Source of the DNA: Deltaproteobacteria bacterium
GTDB lineage: Bacteria > Myxococcota_C > UBA6777
Length of the DNA stretch: 41,634 nt
Assembly (NCBI GenBank): GCA_002731275.1
Contig: PCBK01000054.1
Location: 17,308-58,941 of the forward strand
Reading direction: 5' to 3'
Under the pieces are notes generated by a model, which was not told where the DNA came from, did not search any database, and was given only the letters and a program-made list of their open reading frames with translations. The first letter of the stretch is position 1; each line of letters begins with the position of its first letter. Shown piece after piece: positions 27,546 through 30,314 of the stretch. The position numbers and the translations under genes are program-made.

Positions 27546-28334
27546 ATGGACACACAGCAAACACTTCGAGAGTGGTTACGTGAAGCCCCTTTTGCGATGG
27601 GTATGTCTTCCGGCTTCTTCGGCTTCTTTGCACACTGTGGTGTCCTCTCTGTTCTCGAAGAAGAAGCGCTCCTCCCGATCCGCGCGACAGGTTCAAGTGC
27701 AGGCGCCTTGATCATGGGGAGTTGGTCTGCGGGACTCGCAGCGACAGATCTTCGGGATGAGCTGCTGTCACTCAAACGCAAAGACTTTTGGGATCCAGGC
27801 TTTGGTTTTGGTCTCCTCAAGGGCGAACTCTTTCGTCAAAAGCTCCGGGATATGCTCCCTCAGCAATCATTCTCCTCCACACGTGTCCCTCTGACGCTCT
27901 CAGTCTACGACGTCAAAACCCGCGAAACAGTCGTCCTTGATGAGGGTCCTCTTCCCGAAGCGATCCAGGCCTCTTGTGCGTTTCCCTTTATGTTCCAACC
28001 TGTCCGCGTCCAGGGAACACTCTACCTCGACGGCGGTATTCTCGATCGTCCAGGCTTAACAGGCATTCCAGAAGGTCAACGGTTATTCTTCCACCATCTC
28101 GGCTCACGCTCCCCCTGGAGACGAAAAGGCAGTCAGGCTCTCAAAATCCCCCAACGAGACAACATGACCGCGCTGATCATCGACGGGCTTCCACGGGTCA
28201 ACCCATTCAAATTGCACCGTGGCAAAGACGCCTTCCAGATCGCACGTGAGAGCACACAGCGCGCACTCGATATGCCGATCTCAAACAACAAGGTCCACGT
28301 CATCCCACCCCAAATCGTCCGACAACAAGGATGA
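27546..28334 (+). CDS. Patatin-like phospholipase
   Basis: This is a 262-residue patatin-fold hydrolase. The Ser-Asp dyad is visible: Ser51 in GSSAG (GxSxG) and Asp162 in LDGGILD (DGG motif). The oxyanion-hole segment is SGFFGFFAHCG rather than the usual GGGxRG. Patatins hydrolyse acyl esters of membrane lipids; bacterial ones may be house-keeping lipases, effectors or defence enzymes. No signal peptide is seen. The start codon abuts the TGA of the preceding gene in the same reading frame, with only a weak AAAG-type site, so translation probably depends on re-initiation. The C-terminal 60 residues are basic and less conserved. Confidence 0.93.
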   Translation: MDTQQTLREWLREAPFAMGMSSGFFGFFAHCGVLSVLEEEALLPIRATGSSAGALIMGSWSAGLAATDLRDELLSLKRKDFWDPGFGFGLLKGELFRQKLRDMLPQQSFSSTRVPLTLSVYDVKTRETVVLDEGPLPEAIQASCAFPFMFQPVRVQGTLYLDGGILDRPGLTGIPEGQRLFFHHLGSRSPWRRKGSQALKIPQRDNMTALIIDGLPRVNPFKLHRGKDAFQIARESTQRALDMPISNNKVHVIPPQIVRQQG

Positions 28335-28434
28335 TCTCCCTCTCAAAGAATCTCCCCTTCCACAAAAAATGAACTTGATGTGTACCCACCTCGTATGGAC
28401 TTGTGAAACTTGATGGGAACTGGTTGTCACTTCC

Positions 28435-28508
28435 GAGCAAGTAGCCTAATAGGAAAAGGCGTTTGATTTTAGTTCAAAAGACTGATGGTTCGAATCCATC
28501 CTGGTTCA
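28435..28508 (+). tRNA. tRNA with anticodon UUA (ochre-suppressor type)
   Basis: The cloverleaf is nearly perfect. The acceptor GAGCAAG/CTGGTTC has one A-G mismatch and one G-U pair. The D stem is GCCT/AGGC with a nine-base loop holding GG. The anticodon stem TTTGA/TCAAA is perfect with the 7-base loop TTTTAGT. The variable loop has 5 bases, and the T stem GATGG/CCATC has loop TTCGAAT. T8, A14, G18, G19, A21, T33, A58 and the A15-T48 pair are all present. Loop positions 34-36 are TTA, which pairs with the stop codon UAA. The discriminator is A; CCA is not fully encoded (ACCG). Arms GGTTGTCACT (28422) and AGTGACAACC (28531) flank it and could pair in the precursor. The amino acid is unknown; A73 and U35 would suit Lys, which is a guess. 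Confidence 0.75.
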
Positions 28509-28592
28509 CCGAGGGTATATCCCAAAGTGCAGTGACAACCGCCCTCCCCAACAAGCTTTCACTTTTCTTTTCGTGAGCACATTTGGAGCAAC

Positions 28593-29201
28593 ATGGCGAA
28601 CCCAATCTCTCCGACACCCCTTCATACAAAACACACCAAAAACCATGACATCACAGCCGAGAGAGTCAAATTGTTCGGTGTTGATGGTCAATTTTTGGGT
28701 ATCTTCCCAACTGAGAACGCGCTCTTTATCGCCACACAACAAGGTCTGGACCTCGTGATGCTCGACTATACAGAGCTTCCAAGCTGTCGCATCATCGACT
28801 ACGGACACTTTTGTTACACACATCAACAAGAGCAAAAGCGCAGAGACCGACACAAAAAACACAAGATCTTTCGCTTCAGACGCCGGACACAAGAAGAACA
28901 TATCCACTGCTCAACACGAAAGATCATAAGGTGGCTCGAAGCAGGTCACACAGTCATCATCGAGCTCATCAGCCCTCCCCACACACGACATTACGCTAAA
29001 GCACAATTCGACACCATCACCAACCGCTTTGCAACAGAACTGGGCTATCTCGGCGTCTTGACCTTTCCTGAAACACAAATCAAACATGGCTGGCGCGCGT
29101 TCCTCACACCACACACACAACTCCCCCCCGAACACCCTCCTCTCGAAGACACATCCGCACTCACCGCACTACAAGACACATACGAAGATATCCTCTTTTA
29201 A
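28593..29201 (+). CDS. Divergent translation initiation factor IF-3 paralogue
   Basis: This is a 202-residue protein with GGAG 4 bases before the ATG. The N-domain keeps the IF-3 pattern: ERVKLFGVDGQFLGIFPTEN, then LDLVMLDYTELPSCRIIDYG, matching the usual LDLVEVSPNAxPPVCRIMDYG. A basic linker follows. The C-domain begins at IFRFRRRTQEEH, matching the usual IKFRPxTDEHD. The strongly conserved RFRGREM motif of true IF-3 is replaced by ELISPPHTR, and other rRNA-binding positions differ. It is therefore probably not the housekeeping infC, which normally sits with rpmI and rplT; neither is here. IF-3 checks start codons and splits ribosomes, so this paralogue may tune initiation or recycling. It lies 84 bases after the UUA tRNA. 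It ends in TAA with an open frame beyond. Confidence 0.85.
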   Translation: MANPISPTPLHTKHTKNHDITAERVKLFGVDGQFLGIFPTENALFIATQQGLDLVMLDYTELPSCRIIDYGHFCYTHQQEQKRRDRHKKHKIFRFRRRTQEEHIHCSTRKIIRWLEAGHTVIIELISPPHTRHYAKAQFDTITNRFATELGYLGVLTFPETQIKHGWRAFLTPHTQLPPEHPPLEDTSALTALQDTYEDILF

Positions 29202-29204
29202 TCG

Positions 29205-29438
29205 GTCTTTATCAGGCACGTTTCCACTTACCCCTGCATATCTGTCTTTATCAGGCACGTTTCCACTTACCCCTGCATATCTCTTTTGATCGGGCAAGTT
29301 GCCACTTGCCCCTGCATATCTCTTTTGATCGGACAAGTTGCCACTTGCCCCTGCATATCTCTTTTGATCGGACACGTTTCCACTTGCCTCTGCATATATC
29401 TTTTGATCGGGCACGTTTCCACTTGCCCCAGCTTGGGC
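29205..29438 (+). repeat. Six tandem 39-bp repeats
   Basis: Units start at 29205, 29244, 29283, 29322, 29361 and 29400, each exactly 39 bp (13 codons). The core is GTTTCCACTTGCCCCTGCAT with an upstream CTTTTGATCGGGCA part. The third unit forms a perfect hairpin GGGCAAGT/ACTTGCCC. In the frame of the upstream IF-3-like gene the array has no stop and reads repeated PCIS-LLIG-QVATC. Single related copies lie at 24805 and 30379. Confidence 0.9.
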
Positions 29439-29585
29439 ATCGTCTGTCCAAAAACAAAACGAAGACATTTTTTGTGCAAAATGGTGTACGGATTCGACAT
29501 CAATGGTCATAAGGCTGTATACACAAAGGAGACACCAAAACTCCGCTATCGCATACGTACGTTTACAAAAAATGAGGAAAAGAGC

Positions 29586-30314
29586 ATGACGAAGAAAATC
29601 GTGGCAATTGTATCTGGCATCTCCCTGTTGTTGCTGAGCGTTCCAGTCTGGAGCTTCTACGCAGACAAGAAGCAGGAAAAGCTGCTCAAAAAGAGCGTGA
29701 AGAAATGGAATGCTTGGCGAAAAGCAAACCCAAAGACGTGGGTCGTTCTCAACCGCATGAAGGCCAGTAGAGCGGACTTTTATGGTGCCAATCTGTCAAA
29801 GGCCAGGATGAACAACACTTCGCTCTTTTACGCGAATCTCTCAACAGCCAATCTCAAAGAGGCGTTGTTGGGGAATGCGAGCCTCTCAGGAGCCAATTTG
29901 CGCAACGCAGATTTGAGCAAGGCTGACCTCGATGGTGCATATCTCAAACACGCAAATTGCTTTGGTGCCAAGTTCATCTCCGCAAGTTTAAAGAAGACCA
30001 ACGCAAAAGAAGCCTATCTCTGGCAAGCAGATCTGACAAAGGCCAAGATGCAAGAGATCGACCTGAAAAAAGCATCGTTGTGGAGAGCCAATCTTCAGGG
30101 CGCGGATCTGACAAAAGCAAGACTTGATGGAGCAAACCTCTCTGGTGCGAACTTCAAAGACGCAGATCTCACAAAAGCCAATTTGCAAAATGCCTTCCTT
30201 TGGAAAGCCAACCTGAAAGGTGCAACACTCCGTGGTGCAAACTTCACCGGAGCCATTTGGGTCAACGGCAAACAATGTGGTCCTGGTAGCATTGGTCGCT
30301 GCAACCCATTGTAA
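29586..30314 (+). CDS. Secreted pentapeptide-repeat protein
   Basis: This is a 242-residue protein. GAGGA lies 7 bases before the ATG at 29586. The N-terminus is a signal peptide or anchor (KKIVAIVSGISLLLLSVPVW). A basic stretch follows, then about 30 pentapeptide units of the A(D/N)Lxx type from residue 60 to 225, for example SGANLRNADLSKADLDGAYL. These fold into a right-handed quadrilateral beta-helix. The end, IWVNGKQCGPGSIGRC, is a known closing motif of exported members. The frame is also open without a stop for 128 codons upstream, back to the TAA of the IF-3-like gene. Whether it is made only from its own ATG or also as a fusion is not decided by the sequence. A role beyond a surface scaffold cannot be assigned. 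Confidence 0.9.
   Translation: MTKKIVAIVSGISLLLLSVPVWSFYADKKQEKLLKKSVKKWNAWRKANPKTWVVLNRMKASRADFYGANLSKARMNNTSLFYANLSTANLKEALLGNASLSGANLRNADLSKADLDGAYLKHANCFGAKFISASLKKTNAKEAYLWQADLTKAKMQEIDLKKASLWRANLQGADLTKARLDGANLSGANFKDADLTKANLQNAFLWKANLKGATLRGANFTGAIWVNGKQCGPGSIGRCNPL

Follow-up and report, generated by a model that had tools for sequence, protein, structure and literature searches.

A divergent IF-3 paralogue directly downstream of a tRNA gene with a UUA anticodon

The window, by which we mean the whole stretch of DNA analysed (41,634 nucleotides; G000:C5:17308-58941), belongs to the 10.75-Mb genome of a bacterium whose phylum is sparsely sampled; genome searches at the family and at the phylum level covered one and the same set of five genomes (G000-G004). 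The window carries a tRNA gene that would read UAA, enclosed by an inverted repeat, and on the same strand a divergent paralogue of IF-3. An earlier note, made from the letters alone, had described this pair, and the observation is real: the paralogue starts 84 bases after the end of the tRNA (28508 to 28593) and, as the note had said, neither rpmI nor rplT was found in the window at E<1. The same search found no thrS apart from one fragment match at 0.41. The features of the locus are as follows.

28403-28431, plus strand: left arm of the imperfect inverted repeat that encloses the UUA tRNA (local arm alignment)
28435-28508, plus strand: tRNA gene with anticodon UUA, complementary to UAA (ARAGORN, Rfam, direct reading)
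28531-28562, plus strand: right arm of the inverted repeat (arm alignment)
28585-28588, plus strand: GGAG, probably the ribosome-binding site, 4 bases upstream of the ATG (read from the sequence)
28593-29201, plus strand: divergent IF-3 paralogue of 202 aa, ATG start, TAA stop (ORF list, IF3_N, infC model, fold)
28632-28841, plus strand: IF3_N domain, aa 14-83, retaining 17 of the 24 residues conserved in canonical IF-3s (Pfam, conservation count)
28854-29120, plus strand: IF3_C-fold domain, aa 88-176, retaining 3 of the 17 residues conserved in canonical IF-3s (AlphaFold2 model, 1tig match)

A tRNA gene with alanine identity elements

The window encodes a well-formed class I tRNA at 28435-28508. 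ARAGORN calls it at 28435-28510 with anticodon TTA, and the Rfam tRNA model, whose match ends at 28508, scores 64.2 bits (cut-off 29), which ranks 36th among the 107 tRNA matches of the genome; the two calls bear out the UUA tRNA of the earlier note. The acceptor stem consists of G1-C72, A2-U71, G3:U70, C4-G69, an A5:G68 mismatch, A6-U67 and G7-C66, followed by A73, and CCA is not encoded. The anticodon loop reads UUUUAGU, with G37 and U38. Folding energy alone did not yield a cloverleaf from this sequence. No close relative was found in the same genome, the best-scoring rows reaching an identity of 0.66-0.67 and another search 71% over 58 bases.

The main alanine identity element is the G3:U70 pair, and AlaRS does not read the anticodon. 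Alanine is therefore the predicted charge of the UUA tRNA, which, if expressed, would be expected to carry it. Among 89 distinct tRNAs compared in the genome, G3:U70 together with A73 occurs only in three tRNA-Ala genes and in the UUA tRNA; the Arg TCT and Glu TTC tRNAs have G3:U70 too, but carry T73 and a doubtful acceptor offset and were left out of this alanine-like count.

Ochre suppressor mutants exist in bacteria and combine a stop-complementary anticodon with a normal tRNA body. The UUA tRNA has this fold and anticodon and, judged by its bases, synthetase identity elements (G3:U70 with A73), but it has G37 at the place where tRNAs for UNN codons carry A37 beside A36. All 15 other listed A36 tRNAs of the genome have A37, and the UUA tRNA lacks both A37 and A38. 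UAA is a normal stop in this genome. It ends 13 of the 27 listed window ORFs, which were chosen mechanically, and general read-through of UAA is thus unlikely. The G37/U38 bases and the common TAA stops speak against a strong suppressor role. Compared with the amber-reading CTA tRNAs of phages, the UUA tRNA likewise has a stop-complementary anticodon on a normal tRNA body, but it differs in its UUA with G37/U38, in its alanine identity elements and in its chromosomal setting, in which UAA stops are common.

An IF-3 with a divergent C domain

The paralogue is recognised as an IF-3 mainly through its N domain. IF3_N matches with 61 bits (E 1.1e-16) and the NCBIfam infC model TIGR00168 with 78.1 bits, above its cut-off of 60, while Pfam IF3_C (PF00707) does not match, so that the Pfam check proposed in the earlier note succeeds for one domain and fails for the other. 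The alignment to the full IF-3 profile extends to residue 127, and phmmer against the IF-3 chains of the PDB (E 1.2e-15) aligns the paralogue to residue 163. With an IF-3 C-domain profile the real C region scores 13.2 bits, and none of 2000 shuffles (1728 with a listed score) exceeded 5.8.

The AlphaFold2 model (mean pLDDT 84.6) has the IF-3 elements in order, and its pTM of 0.54 fits two domains on a free linker helix. In VIA-align, the IF-3 N domain (1tif) superimposes on the model with a Z of 13.4 (rmsd 1.7, 75 aligned) and the C domain (1tig) with a Z of 14.5 (rmsd 1.7, 88 aligned). The input of the model was 29 phage IF-3 rows; it leans towards IF-3, so the predicted fold of the C domain is not independent proof. 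A C-terminal extension is modelled as a low-confidence helix. The two-domain pattern that had been read from the letters is kept. Membership in the IF-3 family is carried by the infC model and by the fold of both domains, the latter in a model made from IF-3 rows, and it is not carried by the Pfam IF3_C sequence model or by the conserved C-domain residues, RGRE and K110 among them.

Columns were counted as conserved from 85% upwards in a set of 39 canonical-type IF-3s, which include one viral-contig, one jumbo-phage and five plasmid-record sequences. The paralogue lacks D106, K110, F130, R131, G132, R133, E134, G141, G167 and R168 (E. coli numbers), and the RFRGRE segment is gone, just as the earlier note had observed. 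Its further claim that rRNA-binding positions are lost holds in part: K110, R168, R131 and R133 are gone, but arginines stand at the positions of R99, R112, R116 and R147 (E. coli numbers), which we take to be contacts of IF-3 with the 30S subunit and 16S rRNA. The paralogue thus shares with IF-3 (infC; TIGR00168, PF05198/PF00707) the two-domain fold, the IF3_N residues, a basic linker helix and these four arginines, and differs from it in the lost RFRGRE, K110, R168 and D106 and in a C domain that falls below Pfam IF3_C.

The genome encodes a separate, canonical infC with rpmI and rplT (G000:C109:58185-58670). The window gene is therefore not the main IF-3, and the copy count on which the earlier note had made its paralogue status depend leaves that status standing. 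In all four family genomes with an infC, this gene starts at AUU or AUC behind a Shine-Dalgarno sequence; in G003, ATG, GTG and TTG are absent between the upstream stop and the start of homology. In E. coli, IF-3 autoregulation depends on starts of this kind. The paralogue differs from a canonical infC gene in that it has no thrS, rpmI or rplT beside it, starts at AUG behind GGAG and bears a C-terminal extension. Its AUG start would place it outside the infC feedback control.

Orphan infC copies occur elsewhere. Copies annotated without rpmI or rplT lie on two plasmids (Azospirillum lipoferum AZO_p6 and Paenibacillus polymyxa pSC2) and in one jumbo phage (Sinorhizobium phage Phosso), outside the thrS-infC-rpmI-rplT operon like the paralogue. 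Unlike the paralogue, they keep FRGRE or FKGRE and a canonical IF-3 sequence, and no UUA tRNA is annotated next to them.

A probable accessory factor, or a relic

IF-3 is usually single-copy, and a second IF3_N match (E<=0.001) was found in 5 of 154 genomes (G000, G001, G032, G056 and G111). On balance, and with modest confidence, we read 28593-29201 as a lineage-specific, fast-evolving second IF-3 that is accessory to or competes with the first and is free of infC autoregulation, and the tRNA as a separate gene. The conserved N domain and the C-domain arginines would let the paralogue bind the 30S subunit, with a strength that may be altered by the loss of the RFRGRE loop, K110 and R168. It could then supplement the canonical factor or compete with it, exempt from the IF-3/AUU feedback on the canonical infC. 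The UUA tRNA upstream would be a separate folded gene with the identity elements of tRNA-Ala, and the long stem that flanks it may serve processing or termination. With a rebuilt C domain and its AUG start, such a second IF-3 could show, as an experiment of nature, which residues of the factor matter and how cells escape infC autoregulation.

The main rival is a relic. The paralogue may be a still-open copy in decay, from a duplication, a plasmid or a phage, with the tRNA likewise a stray, a reading that we think unlikely but take seriously. In a tree built from 99 IF-3 rows the end branch of the paralogue measures 6.46 changes per column (median 0.48), and this long branch makes it unplaceable in the tree, where the bootstrap did not settle. 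The same branch weighs against an accessory IF-3, since decay would give it too, and so do the C domain that falls short of Pfam IF3_C and a promoter-like scan that made no call in 28200-29600. The loss of 14 of the 17 conserved C-domain residues also fits a relic, as do the A5:G68 mismatch and the G37/U38 of the tRNA and the lack of an orthologue in four family genomes (G001-G004; G002, 86% complete, is without any IF3_N match). But the frame is open over 202 codons behind a Shine-Dalgarno sequence, the N domain retains 17 of its 24 conserved residues, both domains are predicted to fold, and the tRNA scores 64 bits.

Searches beyond the family returned no nearer sequence. A single-sequence search of the genomes and viral contigs, by a method that detects close relatives only, found no relative of the paralogue, and tblastn of phages and plasmids returned canonical-type IF-3s, all under 60% identity. 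The second IF3_N match of G001 sits within another protein, a 374-residue open frame reminiscent, on inspection, of a nucleoside hydrolase (G001:C128:18900-19052, L014; 39.9 bits, cut-off 26.9), and one of the two IF3_N copies in G032 has no thrS, rpmI or rplT nearby and no tRNA in 6 kb. G003 was considered as an empty site, as it has a patatin orthologue (61%) without an IF-3-like gene; this is the sole gene shared between the neighbourhoods, and the comparison is uninformative.

The surroundings of the tRNA suggest another role for it, which we judge less probable than a relic: held in a long stem, it could serve as leader to the IF-3-like mRNA and control its expression, for example by RNase P or RNase III cutting or by termination at the stem and T-run. 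The imperfect inverted repeat is about 30 bp long with a 10-nt perfect core (28422-28431/28531-28540), a T-rich run (28563-28571) directly follows its right arm, and the ATG lies about 30 bases beyond the stem. The best local arm alignment around the tRNA scores 31, the top value among 2062 window positions of the same geometry and among 84 distinct tRNAs of the genome with enough flank, and none of 5000 shuffles reached it. Against a regulatory leader, the 221-base leader as a whole folds no better than shuffles (z -1.30), a terminator scan made no call at the stem and T-run, and a search of the five genomes found the element just once, with no relative.

The tRNA and IF-3 as a pair

The earlier note had gone further and suggested that two atypical translation components side by side form a dedicated device that alters ribosome behaviour at stop or start codons. 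Both components are indeed atypical, the tRNA in its UUA with G3:U70 and A73 and the paralogue in a C domain with 3 of 17 conserved residues. A joint tRNA/IF-3 device is possible, and what speaks for it is adjacency, which is weak evidence because tRNAs also adjoin ordinary infC genes and viral IF-3 loci. A tRNA-Val(GAC) is present in three of 32 canonical infC loci of about 3.2 kb each (four from the family and 28 from a survey), and in two of the three (L381 and L395) it lies directly upstream of infC on the same strand, as the UUA tRNA does here; these loci differ from the window in having an ordinary valine tRNA and an ordinary infC with rplT. The three loci (L381, L395 and L474) are from other phyla, and their tRNA lies in or beside the thrS-infC locus.

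A phage IF3 is reported in PMC7162821. Of 59 viral IF-3 loci, 17 have a tRNA in the stretch and 12 a tRNA-Arg(CCT) downstream, 10 of these also with a CTA tRNA upstream. The 12 loci form one clade (100/100; L407-L410, L413, L416, L418, L420, L425, L426, L435 and L457), in which tRNA-Arg(CCT) lies 14-20 nt downstream of IF-3 in 9 of 12 and the amber-reading CTA tRNA 0.7-2.1 kb upstream in 10 of 12. For an IF-3 close to tRNAs that read stop codons this clade offers the best precedent, as an analogy only; its tRNAs are unrelated to the UUA tRNA, which resembles the phage CTA tRNAs (identity 0.49-0.69) no more than it does host tRNAs.

The pair is a single case within reach of our scans, which could miss distant forms of it. 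It did not recur in other genomes as a conserved IF-3/tRNA device would, and the look at homologue neighbourhoods that the earlier note had proposed gave neither an orthologue in the four family genomes nor a second pair. Of 32 pattern matches in the genomes of the family (five in all), 26 were examined, and none besides the window's own was called a UUA tRNA. A pattern of anticodon loop and T-loop gave 75 matches in 72 stretches of named bacterial genomes, none of them called TTA by ARAGORN. In viral contigs, this pattern gave 18 stretches with one called TTA (L205), and a less strict one at least 120 stretches, with 80 loci classified and two TTA among the matches listed: L194 (1355-1430) and L205 (1745-1820). 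The L205 tRNA has the loop UUUUAGU of the UUA tRNA, but a poor-looking stem. We found no report of such a pairing in the literature on IF-3 paralogues and ochre tRNAs, which is not proof of its absence from print.

We hold it very improbable that an alanine-inserting ochre suppressor tRNA and the IF-3 variant jointly alter ribosomes at UAA or at starts. For such a device speak the adjacency on one strand, the UUA anticodon with alanine identity elements, the phage clade, and the TAA that ends the paralogue, beyond which no stop interrupts the frame for 370 codons, across the next gene. But run-ons of at least 224 codons follow 5 of the 27 listed ORFs, the paralogue included, so that this one proves nothing, and the next gene starts by itself, with its own ATG and GAGG upstream. 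The single instance, UAA as a normal stop, the lack of A37/A38 and the tRNAs near ordinary infC leave the proposal unsupported beyond adjacency. Slightly more doubtful again is a chromosomal cassette in which an alanine-charged tRNA(UUA), in a long hairpin, heads the transcript of an AUG-started, feedback-free IF-3 variant and lets some ribosomes pass or restart at UAA under certain conditions. Least credible is a piece of a huge-phage translation module settled in the chromosome; the viral IF-3 loci with tRNAs speak for it, but the tree puts the paralogue with no phage clade, the tRNA is no closer to phage CTA tRNAs than to host tRNAs, and the neighbouring genes are of bacterial type.

A UUA tRNA that occurs in nature with alanine identity elements would put to the test whether an ochre suppressor on the chromosome is tolerated by bacteria. 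Should the accessory IF-3 and the tRNA prove unrelated, the locus would be a warning against inferring function from adjacency alone.

Downstream of the paralogue, at 29211-29429 of the window, a 39-base unit that includes a small palindrome (GGGCAAGT..ACTTGCCC) is repeated in 5.6 copies. The array lies between the paralogue and a pentapeptide-repeat gene, and several frames are open through it. A read-through fusion of the paralogue and the next gene was considered and rejected, given the common run-ons, the repeat array and the next gene's own start.

The family genomes hold other unusual tRNA genes. Several share an insertion of about 45-50 nt, placed within the anticodon arm or immediately ahead of it, whose core is a conserved hairpin of about TTTTGTANAAAACNCCNCAGCA. 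Five copies occur in G000, four of them consecutive on C41 (G000:C41:46150-46871, L155 1151-1872) and a further one on C81 (G000:C81:25789-25906, L058 990-1107), with one in G001 (G001:C193, L465 1460-1577) and one in G002 (G002:C152, L466 1449-1563), all within tRNAs. The reversed control pattern gave no match, and the 3-mismatch matches in G003 and G004 lie outside tRNAs. Rfam finds only the tRNA family on these genes, and the insertion was not found in viral contigs; it may represent a novel type of short intron or insertion in bacterial tRNAs. G000 also carries dense tRNA clusters: 13 tRNAs, including short-armed Leu tRNAs (C65:1-2500), 8 tRNAs (C200:28337-29011), 6 Ser tRNAs (C3:242648-243295) and 11 tRNAs that are nearly all CAT (C121:35682-36561).
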